Below are positions 7,743 through 60,388 of a stretch of DNA of 64,000 nt, in pieces (within the stretch, counting starts at the first letter, position 1; every line of letters starts with the position of its first letter). The notes beneath the pieces are model-generated. The model searched no databases. It was given only the letters and a program-made list of their open reading frames with translations, and had not been told where the DNA came from. The translations under genes were made by a program, and so were the position numbers. The DNA is from Candidatus Bathyarchaeota archaeon. Lineage in GTDB: Archaea > Thermoproteota > Bathyarchaeia > 40CM-2-53-6 > DTDX01. Where the stretch lies: the NCBI GenBank assembly GCA_018396815.1, contig JAGTQY010000003.1, positions 1 through 64,000 on the forward strand, written 5' to 3'.

Positions 7743-7821
7743 CTAAAATTAATTATTTCTTCTTTCTTATTAATTTTTCACTTTATTTTCATAATTGTTT
7801 CTGATTGAAAAGTTAGAAAAT

Positions 7822-7828
7822 TTTATAA
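7822..7828 (+). promoter_or_regulatory. TATA box for rubrerythrin
   Basis: TTTATAA follows an A-rich BRE-like run (GAAAA). Transcription would start near 7850, giving a leader of about 35 bases that contains the ribosome site AAAGGTGA at 7872-7879 before ATG 7886. The AT-rich gap to the Lrp gene may hold its operator; I see no clear dyad. Confidence 0.5.
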
Positions 7829-7885
7829 GTAAGTAAATAATAATTATTTTAGAGTAAATTTTTATGAAAGTAAAGGTGAATTAAA

Positions 7886-10577: not shown

Positions 10578-10739
10578 TTGGCGAAATATAAATGTTTAAT
10601 ATGCGGTTACATTTATGATGAAGCTAAAGGAGATCCAGATAATGGAATTCCTCCAAACACTAAATTTGAAGATTTACCTAACGATTGGGTTTGCCCAGTA
10701 TGCGGAGCAGAGAAAACTCAATTCGAAAAAATCGAATAA
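10578..10739 (+). CDS. Rubredoxin
   Basis: A 53-residue electron carrier with one Fe(Cys)4 centre from C6, C9, C39 and C42 ([10 protein letters not shown] and WVCPVCGA). The fold marks GDPDNGI and FEDLPNDW are present. The start is TTG at 10578. The perfect ribosome site AAGGAGGTG (10561-10569) overlaps the last codons of fprA, which ties its translation to that gene. It should feed FprA, and probably also rubrerythrin and superoxide reductase. Confidence 0.97.
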
Positions 10740-10786
10740 AACCTTAAAGCTAAAAAATAAAAAATAAATTTTTTATAATAAAAAAT

Positions 10787-11206
10787 TTATTTTTCTCCTA
10801 AAAGAGTTTTAAACGTGTTTTCATGCTCTTCTTCATCAGCTAAAATTTCTTCAAAAAGCCTTCTAGTAACAATATCATCTTCTTCTTCAGCTGTTTTTAT
10901 AACTTGTTTATAAAGCGTTATTGCTTCTTTCTCAGCTTCTAAATCATCTTTAAGCATTTTTTTAAGGTCTCCACCAACCTTAATTTCTGATGGTTTAGTT
11001 GTTGGAATACCGCCTAAATAATCAAGTCTTTCAGCAATTTTCTCAGCATGCTTCATTTCTGTAATCGCTATTTTCTTAAATATATCAGTTACCGCTGGGC
11101 TTTCAATTCCAACAGCCATAATATGATGCCACATATATTGAATGGAAACAGCTAACTCTCTAGCTATGGATTGATTTAATAAATTCATTAATTTTTCACT
11201 AACCAA
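10787..11206 (-). CDS. Bacterioferritin-like/Dps-like ferritin
   Basis: A 139-residue four-helix ferritin-like protein. Di-iron ligands are seen in RELAVSIQYMWHH, TEMKHAEK, LEAEKEAITLYK and LADEEEHENTF. It is close in size to bacterioferritin-like proteins that bind iron and remove peroxide; no haem-binding Met is obvious to me. Start is TTG at 11206 behind AAGGTG. It is convergent with rubredoxin, about 50 bases apart, so it is expressed separately. It completes an oxygen- and iron-stress block running from 7.3 to 11.2 kb. Confidence 0.88.
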   Translation of the reverse strand: MVSEKLMNLLNQSIARELAVSIQYMWHHIMAVGIESPAVTDIFKKIAITEMKHAEKIAERLDYLGGIPTTKPSEIKVGGDLKKMLKDDLEAEKEAITLYKQVIKTAEEEDDIVTRRLFEEILADEEEHENTFKTLLGEK

Positions 11207-11907: not shown

Positions 11908-12013
11908 GCCGGGATTGCCTAGCCTGGTAAGGCGTCGGCTTGCTAAATTTTTATTTGCGAAAAGCCGATGACCCATTCGGGTCGCGTGGGTTCAAATCCC
12001 ACTCCCGGCGCCA
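11908..12013 (+). tRNA. tRNA-Ser(GCT) with a 17-nt intron and encoded CCA
   Basis: Acceptor stem GCCGGGA pairs with TCCCGGC, followed by discriminator G (12010) and an encoded CCA (12011-12013). The anticodon stem TCGGC/GCCGA encloses anticodon GCT at 11942-11944. An intron of 17 bases (11946-11962) sits after position 37. TTGC pairs with GCGA to make the 4-bp central helix, with 3-nt bulges TAA and AAA: a bulge-helix-bulge for the archaeal splicing endonuclease. The long variable arm (GACCC/GGGTC) and G73 confirm a serine tRNA. Confidence 0.93.
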
Positions 12014-24701: not shown

Positions 24702-25048
24702 AATCTTTGATAAGATTAGTTATGAAGAATAAAATTGAAATGAAATTTATTTGATGAATCTTATAACTTCTAATCTTTCCTTTATTATTCAGTATAGTTA
24801 AGGCGATCCTCCTCCTCTATTACTATGATTTTTTAAATTATTTTTTCTTCATTATTTAATCTAAATGGAAAATAGCGGTTTAAATCTTCTTAAACAGAAT
24901 ATTTCAAGCCTTAATATATAAAGTATATATAGTTGTAAAACAAAATTATAATTGTGTTATAAGTTTATATGATGAGTTTATTTTCAGTTATCTTTCTTAT
25001 TTGCTATTAAGTTAGGTAATAGGGCGTACCACCGTTTAAAACGAAAAA
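24702..25048. other. Gene-free stretch between the cation ATPase and ParB-like genes
   Basis: No convincing gene. AATATATAAAGTATATATAG near 24909-24928 offers promoter boxes on both strands. On the minus strand a strong ribosome-site-like GAGGAGGAG (24809-24817) stands without a usual start codon behind it; an open frame of about 35 codons after it runs into the ATPase ribosome site. I would not call a gene on this. Confidence 0.4.
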
Positions 25049-25055
25049 TATATAA
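25049..25055 (+). promoter_or_regulatory. TATA box of the ParB-like operon
   Basis: TATATAA after an A-rich BRE-like run. Transcription would begin near 25079, giving an unusually long leader of about 180 bases that holds both inverted repeats listed next. Confidence 0.45.
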
Positions 25056-25113
25056 GCTAGATACTTCTATCTACAGAAATGTAGCTTACTTTTCTAGTTG
25101 AAACAAATTAAAA

Positions 25114-25140
25114 ATGTCAACACCTTTAAGGTGTTGACAT
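25114..25140. promoter_or_regulatory. Perfect 13-bp inverted repeat, candidate operator or RNA hairpin
   Basis: The arms ATGTCAACACCTT (25114-25126) and AAGGTGTTGACAT (25128-25140) are perfect reverse complements around a single T. As DNA this is a 27-bp dyad, ideal for a dimeric binding protein such as the ParB-like product. As RNA it would give an 11-bp stem with a 5-base loop. It does not look like the bacterial parS consensus. Confidence 0.75.
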
Positions 25141-25173
25141 AGCATTAGTAATTTGCTTCTTTCTTCATTGGAG

Positions 25174-25225
25174 TTAAGGGGTGGTTTCGCTGTATAAAAA
25201 ACGGAAACGAAATCTAACCCCTTAA
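25174..25225 (+). ncRNA. Long structured leader hairpin before the ParB-like gene
   Basis: TTAAGGGGT (25174-25182) pairs with ACCCCTTAA (25217-25225). Directly inside, GGTTTCG (25183-25189) pairs with CGAAATC (25208-25214) with one G-U, leaving a 2-base TA bulge and an 18-base loop. A stem of about 16 bp is strong for such AT-rich DNA. It ends about 30 bases before the start codon, close to the ribosome sites GGAGG and AGGTG, so it could control translation. Confidence 0.55.
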
Positions 25226-25256
25226 TATAGGAGGAAATTTAGTAGGTGTAAAATCC

Positions 25257-25967
25257 ATGACAAAAGTTGAAGGTTTAGTCTCTTCAATTACTTACGTTGA
25301 AGTTAGTAAGATTATTCCAAATAAATTTAAGGTTAGAGAACTTGATGAAACAGTTGTTAAGGAACTTATGGACTCTATTAAAATTAATGGTTTACTTCAA
25401 CCTATAATGGTTAGACCTATAGAAGCTGGAATAGGATATGAGATAATATTTGGTTTACACAGATTTGAAGCGGTTAAACGATTGGGCTTAAAGTTAATTC
25501 CTGCAATAATTACTTCTGTTTCAGATGAAGAAGCTCTCTTAATGAATATTATTGAAAACCTTCAACGAAATATTAAAGTGAATCCAATAATGGAAGCTCA
25601 ATGTTATAAAAACCTTATTTCTAAAGGTTGGACAATTCATGAAATTGCACAAAAAATTGGAAAAAGCGATAGCTACGTTTACGAAAGGTTAAGATTGCTT
25701 GATAGACTTCACCCAGTTATTCAGAGAAAATTAATTACACGCGCGTGTAATACATTTATAACTCCGTCACATGCCGAACGTTTAGCTCTTATTAATGATA
25801 AAAAACAGCAGCTTAAATTAGCTAAATTGATTGAAGAAAAACACCTATCTCTTCATCAGTTAGAAAGATTAACTGGACGAGCATATTCCCTACCTAAAAA
25901 TTGTTTATGTTTAAAATGCTCTAATTATCCATGTAAACTCTTAAAATCTCATAAATTACGATTGTAA
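25257..25967 (+). CDS. ParB/RepB/Spo0J-like DNA-binding protein
   Basis: A 236-residue protein with a ParB N-terminal domain (about 15-110): the nuclease/CTPase-like fold with IKINGLLQPIMVRP, the GLHRFEA form of the GxHR motif, and IIENLQRNIKVNPIMEA. A helix-turn-helix follows (about 120-165, HEIAQKIGKSDSYVYERLRLL). The C-terminus carries a small cysteine cluster (CLCLKCSNYPC) not usual in Spo0J. No parA is adjacent. The start is ATG 25257, behind AGGTG. It is three bases upstream of an HD-domain gene. The two inverted repeats in its leader are candidate binding sites. Confidence 0.9.
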   Translation: MTKVEGLVSSITYVEVSKIIPNKFKVRELDETVVKELMDSIKINGLLQPIMVRPIEAGIGYEIIFGLHRFEAVKRLGLKLIPAIITSVSDEEALLMNIIENLQRNIKVNPIMEAQCYKNLISKGWTIHEIAQKIGKSDSYVYERLRLLDRLHPVIQRKLITRACNTFITPSHAERLALINDKKQQLKLAKLIEEKHLSLHQLERLTGRAYSLPKNCLCLKCSNYPCKLLKSHKLRL

Positions 25968-25970
25968 AAG

Positions 25971-26513
25971 ATGAAAAAAATTAAGCTCCCGTCTAGAGAA
26001 GAATGCTTTATCTTAATGAAAAAATATAATGTTCCAGAAAATATTTTAAAGCATTCACTAGTAGTTAACAAATTTGCAATTCAATTAGCAAACTTACTAA
26101 TTAATGAGGGAGAACAAGTAAACAAAATTTTAGTTGATAGAGCCTCTCTTCTTCATGATATAGGTAAATTTAAAGCCTTAAATAAAGGAGTCTCTCATGA
26201 AGAAGAAGGTTATAAAATATTAAAGAAAGAAGGTTTTAATGAAATAGCAAACATAGTTAAAAAGCATTCTTTATTTAGTGTTTTAAATAAGAAAGAAGCT
26301 CCTGTTACTTGGGAGGAAAAAATAGTTTTTTACGCAGATAAAAGAGTTAACGAAGATAAAATTGTAACCTTAAAAGAACGAATGAACTATTTAAAAAAAA
26401 GATACGGAAAAAATAAAAAAATCCTTAAAAAAATTGAAGCTGCTGAACCATTAATTTATCAAATTGAAAAAGAGATTTTTAATAAAATAAGCAAGACGTC
26501 ACTTAATTTTTAA
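25971..26513 (+). CDS. HD-domain metal-dependent phosphohydrolase
   Basis: 180 residues with an HD signature: first His H28 (ILKHSLVVNKFA), then H62-D63 in LLHDIGKF, and a later VKKHS and DKRV, which match the metal ligands of the family. HD proteins hydrolyse nucleotides or nucleic-acid phosphoesters. The substrate is not evident. It is the second gene of a likely operon with the ParB-like protein, which suggests a DNA- or nucleotide-related role. An AT-rich gap of 255 bases without features follows. Confidence 0.88.
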   Translation: MKKIKLPSREECFILMKKYNVPENILKHSLVVNKFAIQLANLLINEGEQVNKILVDRASLLHDIGKFKALNKGVSHEEEGYKILKKEGFNEIANIVKKHSLFSVLNKKEAPVTWEEKIVFYADKRVNEDKIVTLKERMNYLKKRYGKNKKILKKIEAAEPLIYQIEKEIFNKISKTSLNF

Positions 26514-30086: not shown

Positions 30087-30392
30087 ATGTTTTCTAATTT
30101 AGAGTTTGGGCTTAAACTTGCCACTATTGGAATACCGTTAGTTTTTTTATCTTTAGGAGTAATTGCGGTATTTTTTGAGTTAATTAAAAGAAAATTTAGA
30201 GTTGAGGAAAAAGTTAAAGAAGAAAAATCTTTTGAAAAAGAGTTAGCTGCAGCAATTATCGCTGCTGTCTATGCTGCTACAACCCTACCAAAAGAAACTT
30301 TTAAACTTCAAAAAACGGGCCTTAATATTGAGTGGAAATCAACCCCGATTTGGAACCTTGCTGGAAGATTAGAGTTAACATCTAAAAAATAA
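30087..30392 (+). CDS. Sodium-pumping decarboxylase small membrane subunit (OadG/MmdD-like)
   Basis: A 101-residue protein with one N-terminal TM helix (about 10-33, LATIGIPLVFLSLGVIAVFFELI) and a charged, then Ala-rich cytoplasmic part (ELAAAIIAAVYAAT). This is the layout of the gamma/delta subunit that holds the decarboxylase complex together. It is 14 bases upstream of the biotin carrier gene and part of an operon with it and the beta subunit. Start ATG 30087. Confidence 0.82.
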   Translation: MFSNLEFGLKLATIGIPLVFLSLGVIAVFFELIKRKFRVEEKVKEEKSFEKELAAAIIAAVYAATTLPKETFKLQKTGLNIEWKSTPIWNLAGRLELTSKK

Positions 30393-30406
30393 AGAGGTGT
30401 TTAGTA

Positions 30407-30784
30407 ATGAAGAGAAAATTTAAAGTTACAATAGAAGAGAAAACCTTCATTGTTGAGGTAGAAGAAATTAGTGAACAGGAATTAACTAAACCTATTTTTA
30501 AACCGGAAATAACTTTAAAAAAAGAGGAAACACCTATTCAAATTCAGAAAAAAGTTATTAAAGAAGCTGAAGAATCAATTATAAAAGCTCCTATGGATGG
30601 TACAATAATTCGTATAGAGAAAAAACTTGGGGATAAAGTTTCTGAAGGTGAAGTTTTATTAGTGTTAGAGGCTATGAAAATGGAGAATGAAATATGCGCG
30701 CCTAAATCAGGTGTAATTAAAGAGTTAAATGTTTCTAAAGGGGCTTCTGTTCGTCAAGGTGATGTTCTAGCTGTTATAGAATGA
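30407..30784 (+). CDS. Biotin carrier subunit of the decarboxylase
   Basis: A 125-residue biotinyl-domain protein with the biotinylation site EAMKMENE, where the first Lys is modified, within a barrel from about residue 58 to the end (IKAPMDGTIIRIEKKLGDKV). The N-terminal 50 residues are a charged linker. Its stop overlaps the start of the beta subunit by four bases (ATGA), a sign of coupled translation. It carries CO2 from the carboxyltransferase to the membrane subunit. Confidence 0.95.
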   Translation: MKRKFKVTIEEKTFIVEVEEISEQELTKPIFKPEITLKKEETPIQIQKKVIKEAEESIIKAPMDGTIIRIEKKLGDKVSEGEVLLVLEAMKMENEICAPKSGVIKELNVSKGASVRQGDVLAVIE

Positions 30785-31896
30785 AAAAGGTGAAGTTACT
30801 TTTGTTCCCCTTTCCCTACGGAAACGTTATAATGATCGCAGTTGGGTGTTTCTTTATTTATTTAGCTATTAAAAAACATTATGAACCTCTCCTTTTGCTT
30901 CCTATAGGTTTTAGCGCAATTTTAGTGAATATTCCATATGGAGGATTAATGGAACCCGGAGGCTTCTTTAAGTTTCTTTATGACTTCGGGATAATTACTG
31001 AAGTTTTCCCAATATTGATTTTTATTGGTATAGGTGCCATGTGTGATTTTGGTATTCTTTTAGAGAGACCTTGGCTTCTTATATTCGCTGCAGCAGGACA
31101 AATTGGGATTTTTACTGCCTTAATAGCTGCTTTATTATCTGGGTTTACTCCGCTTGAGTCTGTAGCTGTTGGAATTATTGGAGCAATGGATGGTCCAACG
31201 GCCATATATGTAACATCTAAATTTACTCCTGAAATTTTAGGACCAGTAACCGTATGCGCTTACTCATATATGGCTATGGTGCCTCTTCTTCAAGTTCCAA
31301 TTTCAAAAGCTCTTACAACTAAAAAAGAAAGATTGGTTAGGATGCCTTATAAACGTGAATCCTACTCTAAAACAATTCGCTTAATTTTCCCTATAATAGT
31401 AACTTTAATAACAGGGTTAATAGCTCCAAAAGGTCTTCCTTTAATGGGTGCATTAATGTTTGGAAATTTTATGAAGGAAAGCGGTGTTGTAGAAAGATTA
31501 ACTAAAACTGCTGAAAATGAACTTGCAAACATTACAACCTTACTCTTAGGAATCGCAATTGGTGGAACAATGATGGCTGAACAATTTTTAACAATTAAAA
31601 CTTTACTTATATTTGGGTTAGGTTTAATAGCATTTTCTTCAGCTTTAGCTTCTGGAATACTATTTGGTAAATTAGTTTATCTTATTACAAGAGGAAAAGT
31701 TAACCCATTAATAGGCGCTTGTGGTGTTTCAGCATTTCCAATGGCTGGAAGAACTGCACATTTAATAGGGCGGAGAGAAGATCCAGATAACTGGCTTTTG
31801 CTTCATGCTGTAGCTACAAATGCTGGTGGACAAATAGGTTCAGTAATTGCCGGAGCAGTAGTATTAACTTATGCACCTCTTTTACTTGGTTTATAA
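30781..31896 (+). CDS. mmdB: Sodium-pumping decarboxylase beta subunit (MmdB/OadB)
   Basis: Integral membrane subunit that decarboxylates carboxybiotin and exports Na+. The 371 residues contain about ten hydrophobic segments and the family motifs [26 protein letters not shown] (the conserved Asp involved in Na+ passage), [14 protein letters not shown] and ISAFPMAGR-like [10 protein letters not shown]. It overlaps the carrier gene by four bases. At its 3' end it overlaps the convergent carboxyltransferase gene by six bases. Confidence 0.93.
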
Positions 31897-33432
31897 AGGA
31901 ATATTTCCATGTTTCCTAGAAAAGCCAGGTTTACCTCTTTTTCTTTGTAATGCAATTAAATAGTTTATAAGTATTTTTCTTGTATCTCGGGGATCAATAA
32001 TTGATGTAACGTAGCCTTTAGAGGCAGCTACATATGGATTCGTTATTTTCTCTCTATATTTTTGAGCAAAATTTAAGAGAGCCTCTTCAGGTTTTTCAGC
32101 TTTCGCAATTTCTTTGCTAAAAATTATTTCAGCGGCTCCTTCAGGTCCCATAACTGCAATTTCAGCTGTAGGCCAAGCTAAAACAGCGTCAGCTCCCAAA
32201 TGTTTACTGCACATAGCTATATAACCTCCTCCATAAGCTTTGCGAATTATAACAGTAAGCTTAGGTACTGTAGCTTCTGAATAAGCATAAATAACCTTTG
32301 CTCCATGCCTAATTATTCCTTCATACTCTTGATTTACACCAGGGAGATAACCCGGCACATCCACTAAAGTTATAAGCGGAATATTAAAAGCATCACAAAA
32401 TCTTACAAATCTTGCAATTTTATCTGATGAATCTACATCTAAAACTCCCGTAAGTACAGCTGGTTGATTAGCAATAACTCCAACGCTAAATCCATTTAAC
32501 CTAGCAAATCCAACAATAGCATTAGGCGCATAATGCTTATGTACTTCAAAAAATGAATTCTTGTCAAATATTTTATTAATTATATCAATCATATTATAGG
32601 GCTTTCTTGGGTCTTCTGGAACTAAATCCATGATTCTTTCAGGTTCATCAGGTTCGATTGAAGGTAGTATAGGGGGGTCCTCTAAATTGTTTAATGGAAG
32701 ATAACTTAAAAGTTGTCTAACCATTAATAAGCATTCTTCCTCATTTTCTGCTAGAAAGTGGGCTACTCCACTAGATTTAGAATGAACTTCTCCTCCACCA
32801 AGTTGTTCTGGGGTTACATCTTCTCCAGTCACAGCTTTAACCACTTTGGGACCAGTTATAAACATATAACTTGTTTTCTTCACCATAAAAATGAAATCTG
32901 TTAAAGCAGGTGAATAAACAGCGCCTCCTGCGCATGGTCCCATAATAACTGATATCTGTGGCACAACACCTGAAGCTAGAACATTCCTATAGAAAATTTC
33001 CCCATAACCTGCAAGAGATGAGACCCCTTCTTGAATTCTTGCTCCTCCAGAATCGTTTAATCCTATTATAGGAACGCCAATTTTTAAAGCTAAATCCATA
33101 ACTTCACATATTTTTTTTGCATGCATTTCTCCTAATGAACCGCCCATAAAAGTAAAATCTTGGGCGAAAACAGCTACAGGTCTGCCATCAATTGTTCCAA
33201 ATCCTGTAATTACACCGTCTCCGAAAACCTTTTTTTTATCCATATCGAACTCTACACAATGGTGTGTAACAAATTGGTTTAACTCAATAAATGTATCATG
33301 ATCTAAAAGTTTCTCTAATCTTTCACGTGCAGTTAACTTTCCCTTTTTATGTTGTGCTTCTATAGCTTCAATTCCTCCTCCAAGTTTAGCTTGTTCTACT
33401 GCTTTTTTAAGTTCCTCAATTTTTTTTAACAA
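31891..33432 (-). CDS. mmdA: Methylmalonyl-CoA decarboxylase-type carboxyltransferase (alpha) subunit
   Basis: A 513-residue acyl-CoA carboxyltransferase with the two crotonase-like halves. It has [45 protein letters not shown], the oxyanion region [13 protein letters not shown], and [12 protein letters not shown] with [11 protein letters not shown]. This family serves methylmalonyl-CoA decarboxylase and propionyl- or acetyl-CoA carboxylase. With OadB-type and OadG-type subunits beside it, and no biotin carboxylase gene in the window, the Na+-pumping decarboxylase is the better reading. It is on the opposite strand to its partners, which is unusual for such clusters. Confidence 0.92.
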
Positions 33433-44011: not shown

Positions 44012-45358
44012 GTGTTAAAACGTATTTCTTCAGGCCCAATAATTTCTGAAAAAGAGTTTAACATATTAGTGTCTAAGAAACTTAAGGAAGTTGTAAAAGA
44101 ATATGATATAAAATTTGATGGCGAAACTTTAGTTCCTTCTGATGATAGCTTAGCTGATGATGTTTATAAAGCAGCTTTAGATTTTTACATTGAAGTCGGC
44201 ACTTACTGTATGGATACTGAAAGAGTAATAAAATTTTCAGAAGAGGAAATAAAGGAAGGTCTAAAAAACGCTCCTCATAAAGCTTTTTTTGGGGAAGGAA
44301 AAGAAGCAAAAACTTTTATACCTAGAAAACCTGAAAGCAAAGATCCTCCATGGTGTCATGTAGGTGCCGGAATAGCTGTATCAAATGAAGAAATTCACTC
44401 AAAGTTAGTTGAGGGATACGCAAGTATTCCAGAAGCGGATTCTATAAGTGTTCCAGCATTAGCTTTTATAGAAGGGACTCCAATAAGAGAACCTCCAATA
44501 GAGTTTTATGGAGCTTTAAAAATGTTAGCTTCAGCTAAAGAAGCTTTAAGAAGAGTTGGGCGTCCAGGTTTACCAATTCTAAATTTAGTTTCTACAGCAG
44601 CTTCTCAAATAGCTGGAATAGCTGCTAGTGCTGCTCAATTTGGTTTAACACCTTCTAATGGATGGTTAGTCCCTACTTATCCAGAGTTAAAAATTGGAAA
44701 CAATGAATTATGTAAAATAGCTTATTTACTTAGTTGGGGAGCAAATGTTGGCGCTGAATATTCGCCGTTAATAGGTGGTTACTCTGGTGGACCAGAGGGT
44801 ACCGCAGTAGTATTTGTCGCTAATTGTATTCAAGGAATACTTGTTTTAAAATCTACTTATCAACTTGCTTGGATAACAAATGTTATTGATAGATGTTCAA
44901 CAACTAAAGATGCTATATGGGCTTTAGCTGTAAGCGGTCAAGCAATAAGCAGAAATATATCTTTTCCACTTATTCAATTTCATTATCAAGCAGCCGGTCC
45001 AGCAACTAAAATGCTGCTTTATGAAGTTGCTGCAGGTATGATTGAAATAGTTGCTTCAGGTCAAGCTATAGAAACAGCACATCCAGCTAGAGCTGTAGAA
45101 ATAGATCATGTAACACCATTAGAAATGAAATTCTCTGTAGAAGTAGCTCGTGCAGCAGCAGGAATAAAAAGAACAGCTGCAAATGAAATAGTTAAAGAGC
45201 TGTTAAAAAAATATGAAAATAATATTAAAAATGCTCCTAAAGGAAAAAGGTATCAAGAATGTTTTAACTTAAAGACGAATAAACCTAGCGAGGAATATTT
45301 GAAAATATATAATGAAGTAAAGAAAGAGCTTAAAGATATAGGTATTCCTTTTGAATAA
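44012..45358 (+). CDS. MtmB-family methylamine methyltransferase homologue lacking pyrrolysine
   Basis: 448 residues along the full length of monomethylamine:corrinoid methyltransferase (458 in Methanosarcina). Matching blocks are YCMDTERVIKFSEEEI, GRPGLPIL, PLIGGYSGGPEGTAV, AAGPATKMLLYEVAAG, ARAAAGIKR and GKRYQECFNLKTNKPSEEYL. From my memory of the Methanosarcina sequence, its GRPGMGV is followed by pyrrolysine (UAG codon). Here GRPGLPI is followed by Leu190, and the frame has no internal TAG. The enzyme may therefore act on another methylated amine, as MtgB does within the MttB family. GTG 44012 has no ribosome site. The match to MtmB and the site AGGAGGG at 43963-43970 point to a start near 43979 (ATA). 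Confidence 0.85.
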   Translation: MLKRISSGPIISEKEFNILVSKKLKEVVKEYDIKFDGETLVPSDDSLADDVYKAALDFYIEVGTYCMDTERVIKFSEEEIKEGLKNAPHKAFFGEGKEAKTFIPRKPESKDPPWCHVGAGIAVSNEEIHSKLVEGYASIPEADSISVPALAFIEGTPIREPPIEFYGALKMLASAKEALRRVGRPGLPILNLVSTAASQIAGIAASAAQFGLTPSNGWLVPTYPELKIGNNELCKIAYLLSWGANVGAEYSPLIGGYSGGPEGTAVVFVANCIQGILVLKSTYQLAWITNVIDRCSTTKDAIWALAVSGQAISRNISFPLIQFHYQAAGPATKMLLYEVAAGMIEIVASGQAIETAHPARAVEIDHVTPLEMKFSVEVARAAAGIKRTAANEIVKELLKKYENNIKNAPKGKRYQECFNLKTNKPSEEYLKIYNEVKKELKDIGIPFE

Positions 45359-45565
45359 CTTTTTTCTTACTATCTATTATTTATATATTTATTATTTATT
45401 TATTATTTATATATTTTGCTAAAAATTTTGTGATATTTTTAACTTGCTAATTAATTCTAAACCACATAAAATATTTATTATTATAATAATTATTAAAATT
45501 TACTACCGTAAATTTTAATAATATCTATAAATGATATATAGTTTCCAACCAAGGAGGCATGCAGT
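45359..45565 (+). promoter_or_regulatory. AT-rich promoter region of the second ABC importer
   Basis: Holds two copies of TATTATTTATATATTT (about 45378-45417) separated by TATTATTT-like bases, an imperfect tandem array. Further AT-rich boxes lead to the ribosome site AAGGAGG (about 45552-45558) before ATG 45566. No gene seen. Confidence 0.4.
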
Positions 45566-46726
45566 ATGAGTGAAGAAAAAAAGGAAGAGAAGGCTGTTTC
45601 TAGGCGTAAGTATTTGGGGGCTGTTGGTGGTTTAGCTGTTGCTGCAGCTATAGGTTGGGGTTTAGCAGGATATTTAGCAAGCAAACCACCAGCAGCTGTA
45701 AAAACAATAACAAAAACAGAAACAATAACAGCAACAGCGACACCAACAGTTCCAGCATATACTTTAGATAAAGGACCGTTAAGCATATATACTGCACTTG
45801 AAGAGGATGAAGCTGCTTACTATTTGAAAGAGGGTTTCTATAAAGATGTGCCTTACTTTTCTGAAAAAAATGTCACTTGGTTGAGACAATCCACAGGAGA
45901 AATAGTTGCGAGAATTATTGCTGAAAAGGATAATCCTCAAGCAGATGTTTTATGGGGGACTTCAGCTGATCAATTTGCTCAATTAGTTGATATGGGTTTA
46001 ATAGAGCCTTATGTTTCTTCAGAAGCAAAATACTACGATGATAAATTTAAAGATCCTAATGGCTATTGGGTTGCTGCCACAATGTGGGTTGATAATATAA
46101 GCATTAATACTAAAGTTTTTGAAGAGCAAAAGCTTGGTGATCCACCGCAAACATGGGAAGATCTTTTAGATCCGAAATGGAAGGGAAAAATTTTAGCTCC
46201 AAACCCAAACACTAGTGGAACAGGTTTCTCATGGTATGTTGGAATGGTTAGTCTTTTAGGTGAAGAGGGCGCAATAAACTACTGTAAGAAACTTGATGAA
46301 AATGTTATTGAGTGGACTAAATCTGGAGGCGCAACTTGTAGACGTTTAGGAACAGGAGAAAATGCTGTCAGCATTACAGGTACCTATATATCTTGGGTTT
46401 ATATTAAGGAGGGTTATCCAATAAAAAATATCTTTCCACCAGAGGGTTGTCCATGGGCAGCTGAAGCGACAGGTTTAATTAAAGGAGCTAAAAACCCGAA
46501 TATGGCTAAAGCATTTATTGATTGGGCCTTAGGAAAACATGCAAATGAGCTTTATAGAGAATTTAGGAAAGAAGATTGTTCAACAAGAAAGGATCTAGCG
46601 CCTTTACCTGGTCTTCCAAGAGATATAGATCAACCTCTCGTAGAAATCGACTTCTATTGGGCTGGGAAAAATAAAGCAAGGCTTTTAGAAGCCCTTAATA
46701 AAGCTATTCCAAGGCTTGCAGGTTAA
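45566..46726 (+). CDS. ABC importer substrate-binding protein with Tat-type signal (second system)
   Basis: 386 residues, paralogous to the binding protein at 40.3 kb. It has a twin arginine (SRRKYLGAVGG), a hydrophobic helix, a Thr-rich linker (TITKTETITATATPT), and FbpA-like lobes with LSIYTALEE, DVLWGTSADQF, DLLDPKWKGKILAPNPNTSGTG. The conserved PNPxTSGT loop is shared by both copies. The start is ATG behind AAGGAGG. The two proteins differ widely elsewhere, so the two systems probably bind different but related ligands. Confidence 0.9.
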   Translation: MSEEKKEEKAVSRRKYLGAVGGLAVAAAIGWGLAGYLASKPPAAVKTITKTETITATATPTVPAYTLDKGPLSIYTALEEDEAAYYLKEGFYKDVPYFSEKNVTWLRQSTGEIVARIIAEKDNPQADVLWGTSADQFAQLVDMGLIEPYVSSEAKYYDDKFKDPNGYWVAATMWVDNISINTKVFEEQKLGDPPQTWEDLLDPKWKGKILAPNPNTSGTGFSWYVGMVSLLGEEGAINYCKKLDENVIEWTKSGGATCRRLGTGENAVSITGTYISWVYIKEGYPIKNIFPPEGCPWAAEATGLIKGAKNPNMAKAFIDWALGKHANELYREFRKEDCSTRKDLAPLPGLPRDIDQPLVEIDFYWAGKNKARLLEALNKAIPRLAG

Positions 46727-60280: not shown

Positions 60281-60388
60281 TGGTGGGCCGGGTGGGATTT
60301 GAACCCATGACCTCACGGTTTCCAAGTTTTCTTATCAGCCGTGCGCTCTATGGCGTTTTTATGCTTAACCAAGCTGAGCTACCGGCCC
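60281..60388 (-). tRNA. tRNA-Ile(GAT) with two introns and encoded CCA
   Basis: Acceptor GGGCCGG (complement of 60382-60388) pairs with CCGGCCC, then A73 and encoded CCA (complement 60281-60283). Anticodon GAT is complementary to 60334-60336. Intron 1: 17 bases in the D-loop (60349-60365); TGGT pairs with GCCA as central helix, with 3-nt bulges TAA and TAG flanked by GCT/AGC. Intron 2: 13 bases after position 37 (60320-60332); CTGA pairs with TTGG, bulges TAA and AAA. Removing both gives a normal cloverleaf. Confidence 0.93.

Follow-up and report, generated by a model that had tools for sequence, protein, structure and literature searches.

Structured cis-regulatory leaders, such as riboswitch candidates and ribosomal-protein leaders, combine paired stems and a conserved core with compensatory changes and a place before one operon, and 104 candidate structured RNAs have been obtained from bacteria, archaea and metagenomes by comparative genomics (PMC2864571). 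Archaeal leaders are usually short, with a median of 12 nt in Thermococcus onnurineus (PMC5316973). ParB and Noc, which carry a CTPase-type domain and a helix-turn-helix (HTH), go with partition-type sites, taken here as 16-bp palindromes, GTTTCNNNNGAAAC (parS) or ATTTCCCGGGAAAT (NBS), and in ParABS systems parA stands beside parB. Two residues of Caulobacter ParB, R173 and G201, have been reported to be absolutely conserved in ParB orthologs and are Q and R in Noc, while N178 and R204 are conserved DNA contacts in both proteins (PMC7383237). According to a recent survey, ParA seldom accompanies archaeal HTH-bearing ParB proteins, for which a role in chromosome segregation is unlikely (PMC12704722). 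The ParB-family fold is also used outside chromosome segregation. KorB, a ParB relative, regulates promoters. The same has been described for VirB, another ParB relative (PMC10770331).

The locus described here lies in a 64 kb stretch of DNA, referred to as the window, from a genome of 1.49 Mb in 12 contigs (G000). The archaeon is uncultured, and because Candidatus Hecatella falls in the same class, it probably belongs to Bathyarchaeia or stands close to them. Like the structured leaders above, it has paired stems, a conserved core, a single operon and compensatory changes; unlike them, it matches no family, occurs in two species and is placed before a ParB-like gene. Its features are as follows.

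25040-25056, + strand: BRE AACGAAAA and TATA box TATATAAG, likely promoter
25114-25140, + strand: hairpin P1, a perfect dyad ATGTCAACACCTT-T-AAGGTGTTGACAT of 13 perfect pairs with a one-base centre
25141-25157, + strand: small hairpin P1a, AGCA/UGCU, from the RNAalifold consensus
25153-25172, + strand: conserved linker TTGCTTCTTTCTTCATTGGA, identical at 20 of 20 positions in the congeneric genome
25174-25225, + strand: hairpin P2, with an outer stem, inner stem UUUCG/CGAAA, AAA bulge, 4-bp helix and loop
25244-25248, + strand: likely Shine-Dalgarno sequence AGGTG, 8 nt before the ATG and present in both species
25257-25967, + strand: orphan ParB/Noc-type gene, 236 aa, with ParB_N domain, HTH and Cys-rich tail CLCLKCSNYPC
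25971-26513, + strand: HD-domain phosphohydrolase-like gene (PF01966, 1.8e-13), probably in the same operon as the parB-like gene

Promoter, leader extent and operon

The archaeal BRE follows the rule RNWAAW, and the box at 25040-25056 fits it. A total of 100 related genomes were compared, of which one (G001) belongs to the same genus and carries the same leader and the same gene pair at the syntenic place. One base of the BRE/TATA box differs in G001, and the DNA upstream of it is about 40 % identical. Counts of the BRE/TATA consensus before other genes of the window were not discriminating in this AT-rich genome. About 200 nt separate the box from the ATG at 25257, and transcription starting, as we infer, about 25 nt past the TATA box would give a leader of about 180 nt, which is unusual because archaeal leaders are usually short. 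A TATAAAA within hairpin P2 was rejected as the main promoter for its poor BRE and is kept as a minor possibility.

The spacing between AGGTG and the ATG is 8 nt in G000 and 10 nt in G001. GGAGG at 25230-25234 was rejected as the ribosome-binding site because it is not conserved in G001, and a leader peptide was rejected because indels between the two genomes break all reading frames. The leader is flanked by a conserved BRE/TATA box upstream and a conserved AGGTG/ATG downstream, both of them predicted, with the start site taken from the sequence. The original prediction of a long leader with two stems behind a TATA box is supported, and both stems are real.

The parB-like and HD genes are separated by a gap of 3 nt. 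The neighbours of the parB-like gene are a P-type ATPase gene and the HD gene, in agreement with the prediction of an HD phosphohydrolase companion and no adjacent parA; ParA-like ATPase domains occur on other contigs of the genome, and a parA beside parB is absent at this locus. The parB-like/HD pair is adjacent in G001 too and not in Hecatella, whose parB has neither such a leader nor an HD neighbour. Elsewhere in the window, the cluster at 30087-33432 resembles a sodium-pumping decarboxylase, judged from translations alone, which suggest a small subunit, a biotin carrier, a membrane beta-type subunit and a carboxyltransferase.

Conservation and folding of the leader

Over about 35 kb of synteny with G001, the leader is the most conserved non-coding stretch other than tRNA. 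Its best 60-nt window is 92 % identical, a value exceeded only at a rubredoxin-like gene and at two tRNA loci. Identity is 80-90 % from 25135 to 25212, and conservation is poor over the 5' part of the leader. The second most conserved non-coding interval, at 7743-7885 between divergent genes, is 78 % identical overall and 87 % in its best 60-nt window. Both repeats, whose absence from close relatives had been named in advance as counting against the original prediction, are kept in G001.

The predicted 13-bp inverted repeat with a one-base centre is found exactly as described at 25114-25140 (P1). Among the perfect short-loop repeats of the 64 kb whose arms reach 10 bp or more, it alone is not made almost wholly of A+T, and 20 first-order-Markov sequences gave two repeats in total with arms of at least 13 and none with at least 5 G/C per arm. 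The RNA fold of P1 has z = -6.7, and none of 200 shuffles was equally stable. In G001 its arms read GTGTTAACGCCTT/AAGGCGTTAATAC in place of ATGTCAACACCTT/AAGGTGTTGACAT, and all 13 pairs are kept despite 7 substitutions: pairs 1, 5 and 9 carry two-sided changes, pair 3 changes from G-C to G-U, none is broken, and the loop is one base longer. When seven substitutions were placed at random, all P1 pairs survived in 0.6 % of trials; in 0.07 % (about 7 in 10,000) they survived and three or more pairs had changed on both sides. Two other perfect repeats of the window are of A+T type. That at 10760-10794 has 17-bp arms of A/T only and a one-base centre, lies between the rubredoxin-like gene (about 10580-10739), which it follows directly, and the next gene, and may be a shared transcription end. 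That at 45489-45522 has 15-bp arms, nearly all A+T, with a 4-nt loop, and sits between a gene ending at 45358 and one starting at 45566.

P2 had been predicted as a 16-bp hairpin. A large stem is indeed present at 25174-25225, with 20 pairs interrupted by bulges rather than 16 in an unbroken run: 9 bp, a 2-nt bulge, 7 bp, the 3-nt AAA bulge (25205-25207), the 4-bp helix CUGU/ACGG (25190-25193/25201-25204) and a 7-nt loop (25194-25200). It has z = -5.1 as RNA, the whole 150 nt has z = -6.5, and in both cases 0 of 200 shuffles were equally stable. G001 has the 30-nt core of P2, GGTTTCGCTGTAT(A)AAAAACGGAAACGAAAT, unchanged except for one loop A, which leaves a loop of 6 nt there, and the 4-bp helix and the AAA bulge are unchanged. 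In the outer stem, one G-C becomes C-G and one G-C becomes G-U when a gap is placed by hand, so the proposed covariation check of this stem gives one two-sided change, dependent on that gap and on one relative. P1a does not vary between the two genomes, is hence uninformative on covariation, and has a pairing probability of 0.49-0.58 in G000 and 0.91-1.0 in G001. On weaker evidence, UUUCUUC of the linker (25160-25166) may pair with GAGGAAA (25231-25237) around P2; this pairing is lost under the hand-corrected alignment.

RNAalifold gave 40 consensus pairs for G000 and G001, none of them broken. Measured against alignment shuffles, the consensus fold of the transcript strand reaches z = -7.2 and that of the opposite strand -4.2, values which, like the covariation with its four two-sided changes in total, describe one species pair. 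With the hand-corrected gap, in an alignment adjusted to the structure, these become -9.6 and -6.0; where the P2 gap is not placed by hand, the part outside P1 has z = -1.9 only. The strand bias of the fold arises because G-U pairs form on the transcript strand alone. Pairing is conserved through compensatory changes, as in structured leaders, here between two species.

The element is single. The proposed search for the arm ATGTCAACACC was run through the 1.49 Mb genome and returned no other exact copy, and with at most one mismatch 18 occurrences were counted against 25 in the control, which is control level. The whole dyad, the P2 core and the whole leader likewise have no further copies in the genome. 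Four viral contigs that contain the 17-mer GGTTTCGCTGTATAAAA were set aside as unrelated chance matches. A covariance model found the G000 and G001 loci and no others among 257 genomes of the class and 398 of the phylum. A weak match in one further genome (G071, E = 0.016), before Sm-like and methionine-adenosyltransferase-like genes named from translations, was rejected because the P2 core is not shared. No family of Rfam release 15 exceeds its gathering threshold at the leader, the best match having 24.6 bits against 70, and a search of the open-licence literature on Bathyarchaeia and archaeal RNA motifs found no description of the element. Two tRNA matches from Rfam in the window, at 11908-12010 (+) and 60284-60388 (-), are not reported by ARAGORN in bacterial mode, and their length of 103-105 nt suggests introns.

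The ParB-like protein

The product of the parB-like gene carries PF02195 (1.2e-22) and PF17762 (1.8e-17), both above cut-off together with TIGR00180, and has the GLHR and ENLQR motifs. By its predicted CTPase-type ParB_N motifs and HTH_ParB domain it is a member of the ParB/Noc family, and Noc and Spo0J are the closest to it in sequence and among solved structures. The structure model is middling (pLDDT 70, pTM 0.50) and was used for fold confirmation only. The gene is the only one with ParB_N in the genome, and the protein is 84 % identical to that of G001. At the C-terminus (25874-25967), a Cys-rich tail, CLCxKCxNYPCK, stands where the usual ParB has its dimerisation domain, which sets it apart from other ParB proteins. 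The tail, CLCLKCSNYPC, is also found in the ParB-like proteins of G001 and Hecatella and may bind metal.

By alignment to Noc, the residues corresponding to R173, G201, N178 and R204 of ParB are D138, S171, E143 and E174, so that the DNA-reading positions are partly occupied by acidic residues. All four relatives share D138 and S171 in place of the R/Q173 and G/R201 that read parS or NBS, and position 143 is E or D. Because these residues are replaced, recognition of neither parS nor NBS is expected. The recognition helix KSDSYVYERLRLLD is identical in G000 and G001.

The locus thus resembles parS/NBS with ParB/Noc in its ParB CTPase-type domain, its HTH and a core with GTTTC/GAAAC, and differs from it in the replaced DNA-reading residues and in the lack of a 16-bp palindrome and of an adjacent parA. 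No parS-type match is present at the locus and no NBS palindrome in the leader; in the window, parS with one mismatch occurs 5 times against 2.45 expected, which is near chance. The leader dyad is not a partition site.

Rival readings and proposed function

The dyad had been proposed as an autoregulatory or partition-like DNA site, and this part of the original prediction is not supported. A DNA operator, in which a dimeric regulator, the ParB-like protein or another, binds the repeats as duplex and represses or activates the operon, has a small but real chance. It would accord with KorB and VirB, ParB relatives that regulate promoters, and the GTTTC/GAAAC half-sites of the 30-bp core resemble parS, as GGTTTCGC and CGGAAACG are like half of parS within a core that is near-identical in both species; binding of the ParB-like protein to the 30-bp core is possible. 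However, dyad 1 has changed at three symmetric positions and in its centre spacing under the identical helix KSDSYVYERLRLLD, and with the replaced residues this makes 25114-25140 implausible as a site of the ParB-like protein. The GTTTC/GAAAC spacing differs by one base between the species, the four DNA-contact equivalents are D, S, E and E, and there is one copy per genome, unlike KorB and VirB in that no operator family was found in this genome. If a protein read the dyad as DNA, no strand bias would arise, and spacing and letters would be expected to stay stable under an unchanged reader. The retained G-U pairs and the strand bias favour RNA instead, and the changes of 1-2 bases in loop and linker length, which RNA tolerates, count towards an RNA leader.

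Among the readings at the RNA level, a separate trans-acting small RNA, processed or terminated from the leader and only incidentally placed before parB, would fit the compact stable fold, the promoter of its own and a conserved linker suited to target pairing. It is nevertheless quite improbable, as P2 is followed directly by the ribosome-binding site and not by a U-rich terminator, synteny with parB holds in both species and Rfam has no match. Cleavage of P2 as a relaxed HBh' splice motif by the tRNA splicing endonuclease is very improbable. P2 does show the layout of such a motif, a flanking helix beside a 4-bp helix that is bulged by 3 nt on the 3' side, this 4-bp helix and its bulge are unchanged between the species, HBh' splice sites are known in archaeal tRNA genes (PMC4090602) and pre-mRNA splicing in archaea is known for CBF5 (PMC2738675), and the 103-105 nt tRNA matches suggest introns in this genome. 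Unlike a bulge-helix-bulge, in which two 3-nt bulges flank a 4-bp helix, P2 has a single bulge, ends in a loop where the second would be and lacks any exon logic; the implied intron would be merely 10-11 nt with no clear use in a leader, and a 3-nt bulge by a 4-bp helix is common. A chance fold or decaying remnant without present function could explain the restriction to one genus and two genomes, but conservation is well above that of the flanks and pairing is preserved, and this too is hardly to be expected.

The leader is probably a lineage-restricted RNA control element and not a ParB binding site in DNA. On balance, and with modest confidence, it is read as a genus-restricted cis-acting RNA element of the parB-like/HD operon and a candidate for control of translation or mRNA stability. 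Transcription driven from the BRE/TATA box at 25040-25056 would produce the leader of about 180 nt, within which the structured element spans 25114-25237 and would fold into the stable hairpin P1, the pyrimidine-rich conserved linker and P2 with its letter-conserved core. Conservation of P1 in shape and of linker and core in letters is the pattern that reading of the core by a protein or ligand would be expected to produce; core and linker would most likely be recognised by a protein or other ligand, with P1 kept for its shape only. The effect in cis would most likely fall on ribosome access to AGGTG/AUG or on mRNA stability. The AGGTG of G000 can partly pair with UUUGCU of the linker in competition with P1a, the pairings of the start region differ in G001, and no shared pairing that sequesters the Shine-Dalgarno sequence in both species was found; from the folding models, a switch hiding the ribosome-binding site is possible. 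The suggestion that P2 is placed to control ribosome access may hold, although the conserved AGGTG lies outside the stem and the GGAGG at 25230 is not conserved. It is rather unlikely that the leader belongs to a new archaeal class of ligand- or protein-sensing RNA whose targets would be an HD phosphohydrolase and a nucleotide switch of orphan ParB type, with the nucleotide handled by these two proteins as the possible signal.

The element is of a known kind, a structured mRNA leader, found in one genus so far. The gene behind it points to an orphan archaeal ParB branch that has lost the parS-reading residues. In the literature searched, descriptions of structured regulatory leaders are rare for archaea and almost absent for Bathyarchaeia. 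The present leader can be tested directly, as its fold is defined, its core conserved and its target operon clear.
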